Shown: positions 53,603 to 62,881 of the stretch, in pieces
Layout of the letters: each line of letters begins with the position of its first letter
Position numbering within the stretch: the stretch's first letter is position 1
Source of the DNA: Bacteroidota bacterium
GTDB taxonomy: Bacteria; Bacteroidota; Bacteroidia; UKL13-3
Assembly: GCA_027488905.1 (NCBI GenBank)
Contig: JAIYAT010000034.1
Location: 1-64,000, forward strand
DNA length: 64,000 nucleotides
Direction of reading: 5' to 3'
Notes under the pieces: model-generated
Database searches by the model: none
What the model saw: only the letters and a program-made list of their open reading frames with translations
Told to the model about the DNA's origin: nothing
Program-made: the position numbers and the translations under genes

Positions 53603-53654
53603 TAATAATTAGCCAATCAACATTTGGCTAATACTAAGTATTTCATTTCTCAAA

Positions 53655-53686
53655 TTTGCATGGCAAATTCTAATCTGTTAGCTTTG
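53655..53686 (+). promoter_or_regulatory. pepP promoter (TTTG - 20 - TAGCTTTG)
   Basis: TTTG at 53655-53658 and TAGCTTTG at 53679-53686 with a 20-base spacer match the phylum's promoter. Transcription would begin near 53692, after the two upstream in-frame starts (TTG 53624, ATG 53660), which decides for the ATG at 53705. Confidence 0.7.
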
Positions 53687-53704
53687 GTGCAAACCATTGC
53701 AAGT

Positions 53705-54994
53705 ATGAAATACGATAAACTTCCAAATGCGCTATTTATAGATAATAGAAGCCGTTTCAGTGCTCAACTAAAACCAAATGCAATTGCGCTGTTTCACAGC
53801 AACGACGAGCACCCTTGGAACGGTGATGCTACCTTCCACTTTAAACAAAATTCTGACCTCTATTGGTTAAGCGGTGTTGACCAAGAAGATACTTGGCTGT
53901 TACTTTATCCTAACAGCCCAATTCCTGAAATGCGTGAAGCACTTTTTATTAAGCGTACCAATGATACTATGGTTATTTGGAACGGACACAAGTTAACCAT
54001 GCAACAAGCCCGAGAGGTAAGTGGTATTCAAAGCATTTTTTGGTATGATGAATTTGAAACGAAAGCGCATCAACTCATTAATTATGCAAGTTATTTCTAT
54101 TTGAACCTAAACGAAAATGACAGGGCTGTTATTAAAACTCCTTACAAAGATTTAAGAATTGCACATGAGATGCGCCAAAAATATCCTTTGCATGAGTTTG
54201 AAAGGGCAGCACCAATTCTCCATCGCTTAAGGTCCGTTAAAAACCAGTGGGAATTGGAGGTAATGAAGCAAGCGGTAGAAATTAGCCACAGCATGATTCG
54301 TCGCATTTTAAAGTTTGTAAAACCCGGTGTTTGGGAATACGAAATAGAAGCAGAAGTAATACATGAATACATTTCTAAACGCGCGAATGGACACTCTTTT
54401 CATCCCATTGTGGCAAGTGGCGCAAACTCTTGCATTCTGCATTATGTAGACAATAACCAACAATGTAAAGATGGCGATATTTTGTTATTAGATTCTGGCG
54501 CAGATTACGCAAACTATGCTAGTGATATGACAAGAACCCTTCCTATCAATGGTCGGTTCAACCCGAGACAAAAAGCAGTTTACAATGGAGTATTACATGT
54601 GATGAAAGAGGCTAAAAAGCTATTAAAACCAGGTGTTAAGCTAATGGAATATCAAGCTCAGGTAGGACTAATTATGGAAGAACAATTGGTAAAGCTAGGG
54701 TTGATTTCGTTAGAGGATATTAAAAATCAAAATCCTGCTTGGCCAGCTTATAAAAAATATTTTATGCACGGAACCAGTCACTTCTTAGGCATAGATGTGC
54801 ATGATGTGGGCATGCGTTACGAGCCTATGCAAGCGGGCATGACCTTTAGTTGTGAGCCGGGAATTTATATTGCGGAGGAAAACATTGGCATTCGCTTAGA
54901 AAATGAAATCCTAATTACAGAAAACGGAAACATCGATTTAATGGCTCATATTCCAATTGAGGCAGAAGAAATCGAGCAACTCATGCATAGCTAA
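53705..54994 (+). CDS. pepP: Xaa-Pro aminopeptidase (aminopeptidase P, M24B)
   Basis: A 429-residue metallopeptidase that removes the N-terminal residue before proline. The start is MKYDKLPN, chosen because the promoter lies upstream of it and downstream of the longer frames; the length then matches the family (about 440). The N-terminal creatinase-like domain (1-170) has HFKQNSDLYWLSG. The catalytic domain has the metal ligands in LLLDSGADYANYASDMTRT, HGTSHFLGIDVHD, CEPGIYI and RLENEILIT. It overlaps the HAD phosphatase start by one base (TAATG), so the two are translationally coupled. Confidence 0.95.
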   Translation: MKYDKLPNALFIDNRSRFSAQLKPNAIALFHSNDEHPWNGDATFHFKQNSDLYWLSGVDQEDTWLLLYPNSPIPEMREALFIKRTNDTMVIWNGHKLTMQQAREVSGIQSIFWYDEFETKAHQLINYASYFYLNLNENDRAVIKTPYKDLRIAHEMRQKYPLHEFERAAPILHRLRSVKNQWELEVMKQAVEISHSMIRRILKFVKPGVWEYEIEAEVIHEYISKRANGHSFHPIVASGANSCILHYVDNNQQCKDGDILLLDSGADYANYASDMTRTLPINGRFNPRQKAVYNGVLHVMKEAKKLLKPGVKLMEYQAQVGLIMEEQLVKLGLISLEDIKNQNPAWPAYKKYFMHGTSHFLGIDVHDVGMRYEPMQAGMTFSCEPGIYIAEENIGIRLENEILITENGNIDLMAHIPIEAEEIEQLMHS

Positions 54995-55650
54995 TGATTA
55001 CCACCTTATTATTTGATATGGATGGCTTGCTTGTAGATTCAGAGCCATGGTGGAAAGTTGCAGAAAAAGAGGTTTTTTCAGGATTCGGTTTGAACCTAAC
55101 TGATGATTTACTAAGGCAAGTCATGGGATTTAGATTGAACGAAGTGGTAGCACATTGGTATCAGTATCAACCATGGGAAAATCCAAATTTTGAAGCCACC
55201 GAAAAAGCCATAATTGACTGCATGGAAAGTTTGCTTGATAAACATGCGGTAGCCTTACCTGGCGTTATGGAAAGTTTGGAATTTGCCAAAGAAAAAGGCT
55301 ATAAAATAGCATTAGCTTCCTCCTCTTCCATGCGGTTAATTGAAGTGGTTGTAAATAAATTAGGTATCAAAGACTTTTTTCAATTGTGTTTTTCAGCAAA
55401 CTCCGTTGAATTTGGAAAGCCTCATCCTGCAATTTTTTTAGAAACTGCAAAAATTTTAGGGTCTTTCCCCCAAGAATGTTTAGTGATTGAAGATTCTATA
55501 AACGGCATGGTTGCGGCAAAAGCAGCTAGAATGAGCTGTGTAGTAGTTCCAGAAGCCATAAATAGAAACAATCTAAAATACGAACTTGCTGATTTTAAGC
55601 TAGAAACTTTAAATGATTTTCCTAATTTACTTCTGAATTTAAATACATAA
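54994..55650 (+). CDS. hxpB: HAD-family sugar-phosphate phosphatase (HxpB/YniC-like)
   Basis: A 218-residue haloacid dehalogenase-like phosphatase. Motif I is LLFDMDGLLVDSEPWW with catalytic Asp; the cap segment VVAHWYQYQPW matches E. coli YniC/HxpB (hexitol phosphatase) better than beta-phosphoglucomutase; motif II is ALASSSS, Lys is in KPHPAIFL and motif IV is VIEDSINGMVAAKAA. It should dephosphorylate a sugar or sugar-alcohol phosphate. It shares a base with pepP and is followed six bases later by the PAS protein, so the three form one unit. Confidence 0.87.
   Translation: MITTLLFDMDGLLVDSEPWWKVAEKEVFSGFGLNLTDDLLRQVMGFRLNEVVAHWYQYQPWENPNFEATEKAIIDCMESLLDKHAVALPGVMESLEFAKEKGYKIALASSSSMRLIEVVVNKLGIKDFFQLCFSANSVEFGKPHPAIFLETAKILGSFPQECLVIEDSINGMVAAKAARMSCVVVPEAINRNNLKYELADFKLETLNDFPNLLLNLNT
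55087..55096. repeat. Iterated near-palindrome GGTTTGAACC inside the phosphatase gene
   Basis: Exact copy of the 10-mer within codons for G-L-N (FGLNLTDD), again the frame in which it reads GLN. Confidence 0.85.
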
Positions 55651-55656
55651 ATTAGT

Positions 55657-56256
55657 ATGCAAAACTTCCTTGAATGCTACACCCAAGCACTTACCGAAGG
55701 AATCCCAGATAGTGTTTGGGCTTTTGATAAAGACTATAAGCTAGTATTATGTAATGCTGCCTTCCTTGACATGAGAAAATCTTTGTATGGATTTGATTTA
55801 GTACCAGGTGATAGTTTTTTTAAAGGAGTTACAGAACAAAGCATCCAAAAATGGATACCTATCTATAATGAAGTATTGAATGGCAAACGACTTATCCTAG
55901 ATGATACACGGGATGTAAAGGGATACTTTAAGCAAGTCCGTATAAGTTTGGCACCAGTTCATAATAAAAATAATGAGGTAATTGGCTGCATGGGAATTAC
56001 AATAGATATTAGCCAAGTAAAGAACCTTGAGTCACAAATTAAACAACTAAAAGTAGGAATCGCAGACGTTACTAAAACGCTAAGAGGCCCGCTGAAACAG
56101 AGTTTAGAAAGAATGTTTAGTCTAGAAGACCAATTGGCCCATAACCTTAATTTAGAACAAGAGGAAAAAGAAGAAATAATAAGACTGGCTACCAATGAAC
56201 TGCAATTAATCAAAAATGCCTTATTGGAATTAAACGAACTCGAACAACTACTTTAG
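55657..56256 (+). CDS. PAS-domain protein with degenerate kinase H-box (Lys in place of His)
   Basis: A 199-residue soluble protein. Residues about 10-125 form a PAS domain (DSVWAFDKDYKLVLCNAAF, then PVHNKNNEVIGCMGITIDISQVK). The C-terminal 70 residues form a helical hairpin resembling a histidine-kinase dimerisation domain; the H-box-like segment VTK140TLRGPLKQ has Lys140 where the phospho-accepting His is expected. There is no ATPase domain. It lies just before the 1784-residue sensory protein and may dimerise with it or with the REC-PAS protein. The ligand is unknown. Confidence 0.7.
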   Translation: MQNFLECYTQALTEGIPDSVWAFDKDYKLVLCNAAFLDMRKSLYGFDLVPGDSFFKGVTEQSIQKWIPIYNEVLNGKRLILDDTRDVKGYFKQVRISLAPVHNKNNEVIGCMGITIDISQVKNLESQIKQLKVGIADVTKTLRGPLKQSLERMFSLEDQLAHNLNLEQEEKEEIIRLATNELQLIKNALLELNELEQLL

Positions 56257-56317
56257 TAAGGTGTTTATCAAACGCTACAATACTTTGACATTTCAACTTT
56301 TATAAGCATCTATTTTT

Positions 56318-59300
56318 ATGGCTAAATCTATCAAGGAAAAAAAAATAAGCGCTTCAGCTGAAAAAAAATTAGAGGATGCTCTTGAAAGTCCAAAACTTTG
56401 TATCATTGGTATTGGGGCATCGGCAGGCGGTTTGGAAGCGCTACAAGATTTTTTTTCGCATTTACCATTGCTTGATAACACTAGTGTGGTTGTAGCACAA
56501 CATTTAAGTCCGACCCATAAGAGCATGTTAGTTCAACTTTTAAGTAGACAAACTAAATTAGAAGTAACGGAAGCTTTTCATGGAAAAAAATTAGAAGCGA
56601 ATAAGATTTATATAACACCACCTGATAAAGATATCAGTATTGTAAAGGAACACATTTACTTAAGTAAGCCATCTGCTCCTTTTGGGCCTAAACCTTCGGT
56701 GGACGTGCTATTTAAAAGTTTAGCTGAAAATGTAAATGCAAATCTCATTGGAATTATTTTATCGGGCACAGGCTCGGATGGGGCACTAGGCATAGAAGCA
56801 TTAAAAAATATTGGAGCCTTTACCATGGCACAAGAGCCAGAAACGGCAAAATATGATGGGATGCCACAGGCAGCTATTTTAACTGGCTGCATAGACACAA
56901 TAACAGCTGCAGATAAAATGGGTGCAGAAATTGCAAATTACCTAGAGCATCCAGAAAGTATTAATTTTTCAAGAAAACCAAATTCAGAAGAAACGTCAGT
57001 CCTTGAAAAGATTTTCCAATTATTAAGCAGTAAAACAGGCACAGATTTTAGTAATTATAAATCTGCAACCATCTTTAGACGACTAGAAAAAAGAATTGGA
57101 CAACTTAAACTAAAATCAATTGAGGAATACTTGCAAGTAATTGAACAGAACCCAAAAGAGGCAGATGAGATGTTCAATTTAATTCTTATTGGGGTAACAA
57201 CTTTTTTCAGAGATATAGAATCGTTTAAGGCCTTAAAAGAAAACCTAAAAAAGTTAATTGCAACAAAAAAATATGGAGACAGTATCCGGATATGGGTACC
57301 TGGATGCAGCACAGGTGAAGAACCCTATAGCATTGCAATAATGTTAAGCCAAATATTAAAGGATAAGTTAAGGCATTATAAAATTCAAATCTTTGGTACA
57401 GATATAGACGAAAGAGCCATTCAATCTGCTAGAAGAGGGATTTACGCTAGTTCCTCTTTAGAATCAGTTTCAGAGGATATTAAAGAGGGATTTTTTATTA
57501 AAAAGGGAAAAGAATTTGAATTAATAAAAAGCATTAAAACGATGGTGCTTTTCTCTAAGCATGACCTTACAAGAAATCCCCCCTTTTTAAAATTAGATTT
57601 AATTTCCTGTAGAAATTTATTGATTTACTTCAACGCCTCTTTACAGCAACATGTTATACCTATATTCCACTACTCTTTGTTGCCAGAAGCCTATTTATTC
57701 TTAGGAAAATCTGAATCGGTGAGTTCCTTTACAGATCTTTTTGGAGCCATTGATGCAAAGAACAAAATATATGTTCGTAAGAAAGGATCAAACTTACATT
57801 CCATTAAATTTTCGGCATTTAAAGTTCAACAAACCTATAACCTAGAAACAAAGCCAAATACAAATCATTCCAAAACCTTAAGTGTTGGAGAACTAGTAAA
57901 AGAAACCCTATACAATACTTTTGAGCATCCTTATGTAGTAGTTGACGAGCAACTTGACATCCAGGAAATACATGGGGATGTAAGGTTATTTATTACGCTT
58001 AACAGTGGCGTGATGCAAATCAACCTAATAAAAATGGTGAATCAGGAGATACAAATTGAGCTTCGCACCTTGTTGGCAAAGGTTGTAAAACAAAAGGAAA
58101 ACTTAAAAAGTGAGATTAAAAGGTTTGAACTTTTTAACAACTATTATTATGTAAGAATACATGCAAGACCTTTAATATTTAATAATGCTGCTGGAAATCT
58201 TTACTTGGTTATTTTTGAAAAATTAGATATCAATGAATTCATTGCTAAAGGACCCGTAGAAAGTTCAGAGGAGCTGGTGAATGAAAAAATAACAGAATTA
58301 GAACACGAGCTAACCGCGACCAAAGAGCATCTTCAAACTTACATCGAAGAAATTGAAACAAGTAATGAGGAACTTCAATCTCTTAATGAAGAGCTTCAAA
58401 GTACAAATGAAGAATTACAATCGAGCAACGAAGAGTTAGAAACAAGTAATGAAGAACTTCAAAGCACCAATGAAGAAATTCAGATTACTTATGCAGAGCT
58501 AAAAGCTGTAAATGAAGAATTAGAAAAAAAGGAAAAAATGTTGAATCAGGTGCAAGCCAATTCCCTTGCCCTATTAAACATTGAATTACATGGATTGTTG
58601 CTCATTGACACATCTTATAAAATTATTCAATTTAATTATCAAGCTTCCCAAATATTTAAAAAACTTAGCAGAAGTTCGCTCAAGCTGGCAGATTCGATGA
58701 TTGATTTATTTCCACGTAATCACCTTCAAGAATTTATTGATGATTTTGCAGTAGCAGCCAACGGTGAAAATTTTTACAGTGAAAGAATGTTCAATACCAA
58801 TGAAGGAGAATCCTGTTGGTTTGAAGTAAATTACATTCCGATTATTCAAGAAAACAAGTCTATTAAAGCCGTTGCATTGGCTTTTAATGATGTAACAGAT
58901 AAGCATATTTTAAATGAGTCTGTGCAAAGGGCAGAAAACTTGCTGAAAGAAAATGAATTGCTAATGATAGAGGCGCAAAAAGTTGCCAAAATGGGCAGTT
59001 GGAACCTCGATCTTAAATCAAATAAACTTAGCTGGTCTCAACCTTTATATGATGTTTTTGATGTAGATCATGAACATTTTAAAGAATCCCATGACTCCTT
59101 TCTTAGCTTAGTCGATGAAAAGGACAAAGCCTTTGTAGAGGCTACAAATTTTAAAGCAAAAGAAACAGGACAATCATTTAATATTACCTATAAAATCACC
59201 ACTCCAAAAGGCGAAAAAAGAGTAATTGAAGAGTTTGGATTTTGCGAGAAAGATGAAAAAGGAAACATCATCAGGCTTTTTGGTACAGCACAAAATATTA

Positions 59301-61672
59301 CAGATAGATCTAAAAAGGAAGAAATGCTTAGGTTGTTTGAGAATGTAATTAAACATTCTAAGGATGCTGTCAATATTTCAAAAACAAGCAAACAATCCGA
59401 TGTTTCCCCAATTGCCATTTACATTAATAAGGCATTTGCGCATTTATTTGGTTATACCCAAGAGGAGATCATCGGAACTGACAATACACAATTTTTTGGA
59501 CCAAAATCGGATCAAACCGAACTATTTAAATTAAGTGAAGGGTTTAAAAACCATGTACCTGTTGAATCAACAATTATTTGCTATAAAAAGAGCGGAGAAA
59601 CCTTTTGGAACAATATTTCTTGCAGTCCAGTGCTTTCTAATGATGGCGAACCCATTTATTGGATTTCCATTCAAAGGGACGTAACGGAGATTCAAACCAA
59701 AATTAAACAAAAGAGGTTATTAAATAATATTAATGGGCATTTCCGCACTCAGGAATTATCAGAAGCACTTAAACTAAGCATTTCTGATTTACTTGAATTT
59801 AGCCAAAATGTTGCCTCAGACTTATGGCTTGTTGATAAACAATCTAATAAAATTAATTACCTTTTTACTGCTCGTACTGCAGAACTTTCAATTGTTATTG
59901 GAAAGGAATCCATAATAAATGGTAGCCTTGAATTAGGAAGGGGAATTGCAGGAAAAGTTTGGGAGAAAAAAGACATTGAAATAATTAACCTAGAGGCATT
60001 TCCTGAACTTGAGAACATCAATAAAGAAATTATTGAAAAATATAATCTCAAATCAGTTGTAGGTTATCCAATTATTTCCAATTCAGAAGTTATTGGAGTC
60101 ATAATTAGCTTGAATAATGAAGCATTTCAACCCTTAAATTTCAATCACTTTGCCATAATTGAAGCGGTTGCTGTTTTAGGAAATGAGATTACCCGTAAAA
60201 AAACAGAGGAAGAAAACAGCAGAATACTAGAAACAGCTGCAGACATTATTTGTGTAGCTAGTTTTGATGGATATTTCCTCAAAATCAATAAAGCTGCAAC
60301 ACAAATATTAGGGTATTCAGAAGAAGAATTGCTTAGTAAACCCTATGAACAATTTATCCATCCAGAGGATAGGTTTCAGACTAATGGAGCTAGAGTTGAG
60401 ATAAGTAATGGCAAAGCTATTAGCTATTTTGAAAACAGGTATATTACCAAAACTGGTGAAGTGGTTTGGTTAGCTTGGAGCACAGTTCCCTTATTAAATG
60501 AATCTTTACATTATGCGGTAGCTAAAAACATTACCAAACAAAAACAAGCAGAGAACACACTTAAAGAATCTCTTCAATCCCTTTCGGATTATAAAGATGC
60601 CTTAGAACAAAGTTTTAATATGGTGCTTACAGACCCAGATGGATTCATTATTGACGTTAACAAGGCAACAGAATCCCTTTCTGGTTATACTAGGGAAGAA
60701 CTTATTGGTACACATACACGTGTCAACCGTTCTGGACTTCATCCCCAAAGTTTTTATGCAAAAATGTGGGACACCATCAATAGTGGAAATATTTGGAGAG
60801 GAGAAATCCATAACAAGCGAAAAGATGGTAGCTTTTATTGGGTAGACACAATAATTGTTCCCCTTAAAAATACCGAAGGAAACATCATTAATTTCTTAGC
60901 CATACGCTCAGATATTACTGCAAGAAAAGAGAATGAGGAAAACCTCATAAAGTTAAATAAAGATTTAGCCAAAAAAGCCCATGAACTTAAACTTTCCAAT
61001 ACAGAATTAGAACAATTTGCAGTGGTAGCCTCTAGAGATTTACAAGAACCGCTAAGGATGGTAACTAGTTTTCTATCTCAATTAAAAAAGAGGTACGGTT
61101 TGACCCTAGATGAAAAAGCTAATGAATACATTGACTTTGCCTCAGCTGGAGCTAGAAATATGCGAGACGTCATCCTAGATTTACTTGAATTCTCGAAAGT
61201 TGGAAATGAAAATGAAATTGCCACACATTTCAATCCAAGCGAATTAATTGAAGAAGTAAAGTTAATTGATAAGAAAGTTATTTCAGAAACAAACGCAATC
61301 ATAAGAATTGAAAAACTACCTGAAATATTTGCATACCGAAGCAGTACTACAAAAATTATTCAGCATCTGATAGATAATGCAATAAAATTTAGGAAGCCAA
61401 ACCTTCCACCCATCATAGACATTAGCGCTATCACCTTTGAAGATAAATGGGTATTCGCTATAAATGATAATGGAATTGGAATTGACCAAGAATTTTATGA
61501 GAAAATTTTTATCATTTTTCAAAAACTACATCCAAAAGATGTTTATCCTGGCTCTGGAATGGGCCTAGCAATTGTAAAGAAAATGGTAGAAAGTATGGGT
61601 GGTGAAATTTGGCTAGATTCTAAGCCTGATATTGGAACTACCTTCTATTTTTCAATACCAAAAACATTATAA
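56318..61672 (+). CDS. CheB-CheR-PAS-GAF sensory protein with His-to-Arg kinase H-box
   Basis: A 1784-residue multi-domain protein. CheB methylesterase (about 25-210): triad S35 (GASAGGLEAL), H62 and D154 (GTGSDGALG). CheR methyltransferase (about 235-490) with the SAM-binding GCSTGEEPYS near C330. A glutamate-rich coiled coil (about 660-740; NEELQS repeats). Then PAS domains at about 750-865, 880-1000, 1005-1130, 1305-1420 and 1425-1545, with a GAF domain (about 1140-1300) between the third and fourth. Last come an H-box-like helix VASR1573DLQEPLR, where Arg replaces His, and an intact ATPase domain (N1687; D1717-x-G-x-G1721; GSGMGLAIVKK). It may receive signals and modify methyl groups. Confidence 0.85.
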   Translation: MAKSIKEKKISASAEKKLEDALESPKLCIIGIGASAGGLEALQDFFSHLPLLDNTSVVVAQHLSPTHKSMLVQLLSRQTKLEVTEAFHGKKLEANKIYITPPDKDISIVKEHIYLSKPSAPFGPKPSVDVLFKSLAENVNANLIGIILSGTGSDGALGIEALKNIGAFTMAQEPETAKYDGMPQAAILTGCIDTITAADKMGAEIANYLEHPESINFSRKPNSEETSVLEKIFQLLSSKTGTDFSNYKSATIFRRLEKRIGQLKLKSIEEYLQVIEQNPKEADEMFNLILIGVTTFFRDIESFKALKENLKKLIATKKYGDSIRIWVPGCSTGEEPYSIAIMLSQILKDKLRHYKIQIFGTDIDERAIQSARRGIYASSSLESVSEDIKEGFFIKKGKEFELIKSIKTMVLFSKHDLTRNPPFLKLDLISCRNLLIYFNASLQQHVIPIFHYSLLPEAYLFLGKSESVSSFTDLFGAIDAKNKIYVRKKGSNLHSIKFSAFKVQQTYNLETKPNTNHSKTLSVGELVKETLYNTFEHPYVVVDEQLDIQEIHGDVRLFITLNSGVMQINLIKMVNQEIQIELRTLLAKVVKQKENLKSEIKRFELFNNYYYVRIHARPLIFNNAAGNLYLVIFEKLDINEFIAKGPVESSEELVNEKITELEHELTATKEHLQTYIEEIETSNEELQSLNEELQSTNEELQSSNEELETSNEELQSTNEEIQITYAELKAVNEELEKKEKMLNQVQANSLALLNIELHGLLLIDTSYKIIQFNYQASQIFKKLSRSSLKLADSMIDLFPRNHLQEFIDDFAVAANGENFYSERMFNTNEGESCWFEVNYIPIIQENKSIKAVALAFNDVTDKHILNESVQRAENLLKENELLMIEAQKVAKMGSWNLDLKSNKLSWSQPLYDVFDVDHEHFKESHDSFLSLVDEKDKAFVEATNFKAKETGQSFNITYKITTPKGEKRVIEEFGFCEKDEKGNIIRLFGTAQNITDRSKKEEMLRLFENVIKHSKDAVNISKTSKQSDVSPIAIYINKAFAHLFGYTQEEIIGTDNTQFFGPKSDQTELFKLSEGFKNHVPVESTIICYKKSGETFWNNISCSPVLSNDGEPIYWISIQRDVTEIQTKIKQKRLLNNINGHFRTQELSEALKLSISDLLEFSQNVASDLWLVDKQSNKINYLFTARTAELSIVIGKESIINGSLELGRGIAGKVWEKKDIEIINLEAFPELENINKEIIEKYNLKSVVGYPIISNSEVIGVIISLNNEAFQPLNFNHFAIIEAVAVLGNEITRKKTEEENSRILETAADIICVASFDGYFLKINKAATQILGYSEEELLSKPYEQFIHPEDRFQTNGARVEISNGKAISYFENRYITKTGEVVWLAWSTVPLLNESLHYAVAKNITKQKQAENTLKESLQSLSDYKDALEQSFNMVLTDPDGFIIDVNKATESLSGYTREELIGTHTRVNRSGLHPQSFYAKMWDTINSGNIWRGEIHNKRKDGSFYWVDTIIVPLKNTEGNIINFLAIRSDITARKENEENLIKLNKDLAKKAHELKLSNTELEQFAVVASRDLQEPLRMVTSFLSQLKKRYGLTLDEKANEYIDFASAGARNMRDVILDLLEFSKVGNENEIATHFNPSELIEEVKLIDKKVISETNAIIRIEKLPEIFAYRSSTTKIIQHLIDNAIKFRKPNLPPIIDISAITFEDKWVFAINDNGIGIDQEFYEKIFIIFQKLHPKDVYPGSGMGLAIVKKMVESMGGEIWLDSKPDIGTTFYFSIPKTL

Positions 61673-61837
61673 AAAATCTTACTGCCTCATTGAACTTCTT
61701 GTTAAAAATAGTTTATACGATCTCGATTAATAGGAATCCTAAGAATAGTCAAAAAACAAAGCATAAAAAAATGCAACATTTTATAGTAGAAATCTATAAA
61801 TAAATTTTAACTTAGTGCCTCTCCAAGCCTATTATTT

Positions 61838-62881
61838 ATGCAAAAAGATACCTACAACTATAAAATACTTATTGCGGAAGATAACCAAGGTGATTTAACA
61901 CTCTTTAAAGATTACCTATCCGATTTCATTACTAATCCTAAGATTTTCCATACCAAATCCTTTAGAGAAACTAAAAACGAAATAGTATTTAATAAAGAGG
62001 AAATTGAAATCATTTTCTTAGACCTCACCTTACCTGATATTAGCCCAATAGAATTACTAAAAGAAGTCATAGCGCTTGCAGGCAATATTCCCATTATAGT
62101 GCTCACAGGCTACTCTGATTTTGCTTTAGCAACCGAATCCATTTCACTTGGTATTTCAGATTACTTACTAAAGGATGAACTAAATAGCACACTATTATAC
62201 AAGAGTATTATTTATAATTTAGAGAGAAACAAAATTGTAACAAGACTTAAAGTTTCTGAACAAAGATATTCAGATCTATTTCAACTAAGTCCAGAACCAA
62301 TGTGCGTGTTAGATTTAGAATTATTAAAATTTATTGATGTAAATAAGGCAGCCTTAAGGCAATATGGATATACTAAAGAGGAATTTCTAAATCTTGAATA
62401 CTATGAACTTAGACCTTCTGAAGACCAAATTCAAGCTAAAAAAGCCATTGAAAAAGTTAAACATGATTCCAACACCTTTGTTGGTTTGGGAATTGTAAAA
62501 CATGTTAGAAAAAATGGCGAAATGATCTATGTGGAGGTTAGAAGCAATAGACTTGATTATGAGAATCGTAAGATTGCGATTATCCTTGCTTCTGACTACA
62601 CAGAACGTGTTAAAAGTCATTTGGCACTTGAATCTCAAAATGATAAACTCAGAGAAATTGCTTGGACCCAATCTCATGTAGTGAGAGCTCCCTTAGCCAG
62701 AATGATGGGAATTGTGAATCTTTTAAAAGAAGGAAATATCCAAGAAAATGAACTTTCAATATTTCTTGAACACCTAAAAACCTCTGCTGATCAATTCGAC
62801 CAAATCATAAGGGAAATTACTTCAAAAGCAGAACAAATAGAAATGGAGAAACTTGTTAGTTACCAACCAACTATTTTATAA
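61838..62881 (+). CDS. REC-PAS protein with histidine H-box but no ATPase domain
   Basis: A 347-residue protein. Receiver domain (about 8-125) with phospho-acceptor D62 (IIFLDLTLPD) and acidic pocket ED in IAEDNQGD. PAS domain (about 142-255) with RYSDLFQLSPEPMCVLDLEL. The C-terminal helix has WTQSH280VVRAPLARMMG, an H-box with the phospho-accepting His intact, followed by a second helix, but no catalytic ATPase domain. It could be a phosphorelay or trans-phosphorylation partner of the upstream 1784-residue protein, which lacks the His. It overlaps the convergent OmpA gene by 22 bases. Confidence 0.75.
   Translation: MQKDTYNYKILIAEDNQGDLTLFKDYLSDFITNPKIFHTKSFRETKNEIVFNKEEIEIIFLDLTLPDISPIELLKEVIALAGNIPIIVLTGYSDFALATESISLGISDYLLKDELNSTLLYKSIIYNLERNKIVTRLKVSEQRYSDLFQLSPEPMCVLDLELLKFIDVNKAALRQYGYTKEEFLNLEYYELRPSEDQIQAKKAIEKVKHDSNTFVGLGIVKHVRKNGEMIYVEVRSNRLDYENRKIAIILASDYTERVKSHLALESQNDKLREIAWTQSHVVRAPLARMMGIVNLLKEGNIQENELSIFLEHLKTSADQFDQIIREITSKAEQIEMEKLVSYQPTIL

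Follow-up and report, generated by a model that had tools for sequence, protein, structure and literature searches.

How might a sensory kinase signal once its own phospho-acceptor histidine has been lost while its ATP-binding domain is kept? The question is raised by three adjoining genes, here called U, B and D, on the plus strand of a 64,000-nucleotide stretch of Bacteroidota DNA (contig JAIYAT010000034.1; hereafter the window). B (56318..61672) encodes a 1784-residue protein with the arrangement CheB-CheR-coil-PAS/GAF-DHp-CA and a His-less kinase core, and D (61838..62881) a 347-residue protein in which a receiver (REC) and a PAS domain are followed by a lone DHp domain without an ATPase; both were delineated using an open reading frame (ORF) check, Pfam and orthologues. 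The original prediction held that B phosphorylates D in trans, or that two or all three of the proteins form mixed dimers, and the frames, coordinates and named residues of U, B and D were all confirmed by the ORF and codon check. The sequence evidence set out below is best explained by B and D being two halves of one signalling unit, and the adjacency of the two genes, which had been proposed for checking in relatives, is kept in 3/3 of the genomes with B among 60 relatives and the window.

Arginine at the phospho-acceptor position of B

The DHp (HisKA) region of B (residues 1555-1640, 60980..61237) was recognised from alignments and from a Pfam match of 21.5 bits, under the cut-off of 26.9. 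Within it Arg1573 (codon AGA, 61034..61036) stands at the position of the phospho-acceptor His, as judged by alignment with the His of related kinases and with that of VASHDIKEPLR in PDB 8f71, the nearest solved kinase. The codon is AGA in all three genomes with B, namely that of the window (G000) and those of G009 and G005, whose B proteins are 92% and 68% identical to that of the window. A sequencing error or a recent loss of the His was ruled out by the identical AGA in three assemblies, CAY and AGA differing at 3/3 codon positions. The residue is thus real, and a His at this site in close relatives, named beforehand as the result that would speak against the proposal, was not encountered: Arg is fixed, and the search for B orthologues yielded none with His. 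The simplest history would be one substitution in the ancestor of the three species, retained since.

Exact matches to the motif VAS-R/S-DLQEPL were found in genome_contigs (84,980 genomes, a scan that may leave out the window's own genome) on only two contigs, JAIYCU010000009.1 and CAMDHZ010000004.1, both carrying B orthologues. The His form occurs in 66/295 genomes sampled from the class, and the Arg/Ser form in 2/295 (G000 and G005); such pattern searches demand the exact amino-acid motif and miss divergent members, and the Arg pattern also admits Ser (AGY). A scan of the 19 genus genomes with the kinase part of B listed 42 matches, of which 30 were read, giving Arg in the three B proteins and His in 27, with the nearest His-bearing homologues among the matches listed being 42-47% identical to B. 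The position is likewise His in 24 related cores, which had been collected with a motif admitting only His or Arg there.

Retention of the ATP-binding domain of B

The HATPase_c (CA) domain of B (residues 1678-1783, 61349..61666) gave a Pfam match of 77 bits, and its key boxes are kept in the alignment, with N1687, D1717, G1721 and GSGMGL (1745-1750) at their expected places in the ORF check. With the 54 columns in which at least 85% of the 24 His-bearing cores agree as reference, 49 were kept in all three B proteins, ATP-binding residues included; H1573R, Q1679K and R1736K are common to the three, and two more columns deviate only in the protein of G005. Between B and this orthologue, whose CA domains are 61% identical, N1687, DNGIGI and the glycines of the G2 box are invariant, so that the ATP-binding boxes can be called intact, as had been claimed. 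Measured against G009, dN/dS is 0.118 for the DHp region, 0.095 for CA and 0.121 for the whole of B. The predicted structure of the core (mean pLDDT 50.3) was too poor for use.

These figures bear on the idea that the kinase half has been decaying since the His was lost, with selection keeping CheB/CheR and the PAS domains, which we regard as very unlikely. The replacement of the first N-box Asn by His in B and by Glu in the G005 orthologue speaks for such decay; however, this residue is also non-Asn in several His-bearing kinases, CA is as constrained as the whole protein, and the invariant ATP-binding residues named above run counter to it. Judged from its sequence, the kinase core gives no impression of decay.

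D and its family of lone DHp proteins

The receiver of D (61865..62191; Response_reg in Pfam) carries the predicted phosphorylation site Asp62 (GAC, 62021..62023), and is followed by a PAS domain and by the lone DHp domain (62630..62842), which was assigned from its motif QSHVVRAPLAR, from alignment and from a HisKA match of 21.7 bits, again below the cut-off of 26.9. The candidate phospho-acceptor His280 (CAT, 62675..62677) was located by codon check, alignment and a motif search with the codon left free, and no HATPase was found in D in the Pfam scan (E up to 1, the setting used throughout). His and the receiver Asp are both present in 11/11 aligned D-type proteins, His is kept in the full-length relatives of G034, G001, G007 and G013 (45-47% identical), and dN/dS of the DHp domain against G009 is 0.033; the description of D as a His-bearing receiver protein without an ATPase, with both residues kept, therefore stands.

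The pattern QSHxVRAPLA was found at 20 places in 17/295 genomes of the class sample. At 0/20 of these is His followed in frame by an ATPase, as defined by a G1-box expression match, and 19/20 frames end 56-72 residues past the His. A search that left this codon open returned the identical 20 places, all with CAC or CAT (His in 20/20); the residue after His is limited in the pattern to codons NTN, so that this search tests the His and not the next position. As far as these patterns reach, DHp domains that lack an ATPase and always keep the His constitute a separate family in these bacteria. Two further proteins with a lone, His-bearing DHp domain and without an ATPase were observed in the window's own genome, at C27:110245 (QSHKVRAPLA, where Lys directly follows the His) and C28:5519 (LSHIIRRPVA).

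The predicted structure of D was too poor for use (mean pLDDT 37.7, with two long helices predicted at low confidence towards the C terminus, 255-297 and 303-340), and the D-family tree, with 3/11 inner branches starred, does not allow its congruence with that of the kinases to be shown. In the counterparts of D in G021, G033 and G104, full kinase cores of different types follow a similar receiver, which suggests that the C-terminal module may be swapped while the receiver stays.

Gene order around D-type genes

Outside the Arg lineage, a His-bearing DLQEPLR-type kinase was found on the same strand near the D-type gene at 6/9 loci. The order kinase (SHDLQEPLR), small receiver, D-type gene is seen in G013, G034, G018 and G224; in G069 three SHDLQEPLR kinases are followed by ORFs of 145 and 484 residues, the small receiver and the D-type gene; and in G248 a SHDMQEPLR kinase directly precedes the D-type gene, with small receivers downstream of the latter. 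A small receiver thus lies between kinase and D-type gene at 5 of those 6 loci. The three kinases of G069 are in tandem, as are three DLQEPLR kinases upstream of the small receiver and D-type gene in G224.

Among the lone-DHp genes of the class sample, a DLQEPLR-type kinase, with His or Arg, lies near 5/6 of those bearing a receiver versus 0/14 of those without a detected receiver (Fisher p 0.0004), or 4/5 versus 0/14 (p 0.0013) with the two orthologous B-D loci taken as one; the G091 gene was scored as receiver-bearing though its parts lie in two frames, and several neighbourhoods (among them those of G211, G265 and G176) are cut by contig ends. Another reading of D must be weighed at this point, namely that it is a self-contained relay hub whose Asp62 is phosphorylated by other kinases, the lone DHp taking phosphate from receivers, returning it to them or acting as a receiver phosphatase, with B a mere neighbour or regulator. 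Spo0B and HPt proteins are known to exchange phosphate with receivers in this way, and the lack of an acidic residue after His280 would fit phosphotransfer from a receiver. The 14/20 proteins with neither a detected receiver nor a DLQEPLR-type kinase in the flanking stretch examined imply that the domain can work without such a partner nearby, G005 has a second, His-bearing kinase nearby, and a phosphatase or phosphotransfer role is suggested for similar archaeal proteins in the available part of PMC5847659. However, where a receiver is present the kinase is usually there too, as the same comparison shows, and we consider the hub unlikely.

In the kinase tree the core of B is nested within a 13-row clade (support 95/94) that also holds kinases of G034, G013, G224 (3), G069 (3) and G104 and the upstream kinase of G005. 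The kinases of 4/6 kinase-D loci (G013, G034, G224 and G069) thus fall in the clade of B and those of G018 and G248 outside it, a share that partly reflects sampling, the rows beside D having been picked for being beside D. Of ten rows drawn from the class sample regardless of D, one (G104) falls in the clade, and a small receiver and a receiver-PAS kinase are encoded no more than three genes away from it; no D-type gene was found in the flanks of about 1.5 kb around the other nine.

The small receiver of G013 has orthologues of 57-63% identity in G018 and G034, and its best-scoring match in G000, G005 and G009 is 31-32% identical, by which measure the three Arg genomes lack the orthologue. 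The absence of a dedicated small receiver would be expected if B cannot feed a receiver from a His of its own, and B and D look like an old pair that was rewired upon loss of the His.

A split kinase as candidate mechanism

In the mechanism that we tentatively prefer, at somewhat short of an even chance, the PAS/GAF domains of B would sense a signal, the ATPase domain of B could not phosphorylate its own DHp region, which has Arg for His, and in a mixed B-D complex it would instead phosphorylate His280 of D, from which the phosphate would pass to Asp62 of the D receiver. Found at this locus are a protein without an acceptor but with ATP-binding boxes by sequence, a His-bearing partner without an ATPase, and conserved linkage between their genes. 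A split kinase would explain together the old link between kinase and D, the loss of the His, the absence of the small receiver and the keeping of the ATP-binding boxes, H280 and D62.

Several observations weigh against this mechanism. An acidic residue after the His normally helps ATP-dependent phosphorylation of HisKA domains, and the presence of Val rather than Glu or Asp after His280 counts against direct trans-phosphorylation. Kinases with a His of their own also have a D-type neighbour, so that the His of D need not be a replacement acceptor. At 3/9 D-type loci outside the Arg lineage (G001, G007 and G091) no DLQEPLR-type kinase was found in the flanking stretch examined, G001 having a kinase with AAHDLKSPL two genes on from the D-type gene, and in G005 the second, His-bearing DLQEPLR kinase a few genes upstream could feed D. 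Finally, kept ATP-binding boxes need not mean kinase activity: by analogy with DivL, which has a non-His acceptor site, keeps its N, G1, F and G2 boxes and yet, in the part of PMC4211667 that was available, works without kinase activity, B may likewise act without it.

DivL thus offers a further reading, doubtful in itself and standing close behind the split kinase, in which the His-less core of B binds the D receiver, perhaps only once another kinase has phosphorylated it, and informs other domains of B such as CheB/CheR, with no phosphate passing from B to D. The large additional output domains of B and the conserved receiver and Asp62 of D agree with such a pseudokinase. However, the partner missing from the Arg genomes is the small receiver and not D, and the constraint on H280 would be superfluous.

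If the split kinase is nevertheless true, the widespread DHp proteins without an ATPase would gain a first candidate for both partner and function. Gene order names a likely partner for those bearing a receiver. The Arg lineage may also serve as a naturally occurring mutant that excludes any transfer starting from a His of the kinase itself; together with the partner named by gene order, it makes the role of the lone DHp domain directly testable.

The CheB/CheR half of B

Pfam returned CheB (6e-54), CheR (5.3e-53), CheR_N and several PAS domains for B, with GAF weak and under the cut-off (25/26 families shown). The CheB methylesterase domain (residues 30-205, 56405..56932) is a full-length match with the motifs GASAGG, AQHLSP and GTGSDG, and the CheR_N and CheR methyltransferase domains occupy residues 229-482 (57002..57763). 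The CheB and CheR active sites had been described as complete, and by Pfam and motifs, the latter having well-known catalytic roles, both domains are. Chemoreceptors (MCPs) were rejected as their substrates, the MCP signalling domain PF00015 being matched in 0/3 of G000, G005 and G009 while the control was matched in 7/14 genomes; the CheB/CheR part would thus target something other than a classical chemoreceptor. A CheB-CheR-PAS hybrid sensor kinase from G022 (a frame of 1954 residues) is 54% identical to B over the CheB-CheR-PAS half, but its C-terminal kinase core is of another type, with His (SHNMRSPL).

The sensory part is uneven between relatives. Across window 58590-59189 (about residues 758-957 of B) identity to G009 drops to 0.68-0.74 from mostly 0.85-0.98 around it, and dS of the PAS1-3 segment is 1.16 versus 0.17-0.18 in the segments on either side, so that the first PAS domains form a mosaic stretch, as if exchanged through recombination. 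The GAF domain (window 59708-60187) is 40% identical to G005, versus 66-71% in adjoining segments, which may reflect fast evolution or replacement of the sensor. Smaller dips in identity to G009, to about 0.8, were observed near residue 1508 of B, in U and in the HAD gene before it.

The adjoining gene U

U (55657..56256, 199 residues; ORF check, Pfam) encodes a PAS protein with a degenerate tail and is judged to lie outside the B-D pair. Pfam showed PAS only, HisKA remaining unmatched at E up to 1, and K140 (AAA at 56074) stands in a VTK-TLRGPLK stretch that by its sequence is a DHp remnant at best. The three B genomes have Lys here, as by alignment does G015, but the residue is Ser, Gly, Glu, Asp and Glu in G013, G002, G010, G003 and G012, respectively, the last having its U orthologue on a contig fragment. 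The order M24 peptidase, HAD phosphatase, U (window 53624-56256) is kept independently of B and D in five other genomes of the genus (G013, G002, G010, G015 and G003), with neither B nor D in flanks of 1.5 kb. A U homologue in G022, of the same family, has different neighbours and retains a His (TSHELRRPL). A module of three genes was ruled out on account of the linkage to the HAD gene and the unconserved Lys, and of the proposed three-protein unit only the B-D pair stood. The most fitting view of U is that of a PAS protein with a lone DHp of its own that has probably decayed, and with no historical relation to that pair.

No plus-strand terminator-like site was found between U, B and D in the terminator scan, one lying inside U; the promoter-like sites, 18 versus a mean of 31.1 in shuffled sequence, say little.

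Comparison with known systems

The original prediction considered a relay with acceptor and catalytic domains on separate proteins to be new, a claim of principle that is too strong because split kinases and ATPase-less HisKA proteins are already in print (PMC3591291, PMC12675982 and PMC5847659, each available in part). The literature searched yielded neither a kinase with a fixed His-to-Arg change next to a lone-DHp receiver protein nor a gene order that names partners for such proteins, and nothing on this point for CheB-CheR hybrid kinases. It is possible, though doubtful, that B and D represent a HisKA-type kinase split between proteins by a point substitution, working only via a receiver-PAS-DHp partner of a type beside which relatives of the sensor were encoded already, and with CheB/CheR acting on a non-chemoreceptor substrate.

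According to the accessible portion of PMC3591291, neither CheA3 nor CheA4 of Rhodobacter sphaeroides autophosphorylates alone and their mixture labels CheA3, so that catalytic domain and acceptor His lie on two proteins, as proposed for B and D; the same portion describes split EnvZ that functions in vitro and 1556/42417 HisKA proteins (3.66%) without an ATPase. However, CheA3 and CheA4 have the CheA architecture and not a HisKA DHp, whereas B keeps a full DHp with Arg and D adds a receiver of its own. B and D are not a split CheA proper, no CheA domains (Hpt/P1 or CheW-like P5) being listed for either protein among the Pfam families shown.

For FasB and FasC of group A Streptococcus, the available part of PMC12675982 gives a heterodimer model in which one partner supplies the active kinase domain and the other the His that it phosphorylates, the kinase domain of the latter being dispensable. 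Unlike B and D, both keep DHp and kinase domain, the receiver belongs to a third protein, FasA, and Arg in place of His is not reported in that part. DivL, the Caulobacter pseudo-histidine kinase, resembles B in having PAS domains and a complete DHp-CA core with intact ATP-binding boxes and a non-His acceptor site, which is Tyr, or Ala in one species (PMC4211667, in the portion available). B differs in having Arg in 3/3 cases rather than Tyr, and in its CheB/CheR domains, which DivL does not have. The DivL partner DivK is a single receiver.

The closest likeness to D in architecture is AF_1472 of Archaeoglobus, a REC-PAS/GAF-HisKA protein without HATPase that the accessible text of PMC5847659 calls unstudied, with unknown partners; D has the same arrangement, its HisKA match lying under the Pfam cut-off. 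AF_1472 is archaeal, whereas the D-type genes described here often have a kinase as neighbour, which suggests a partner.

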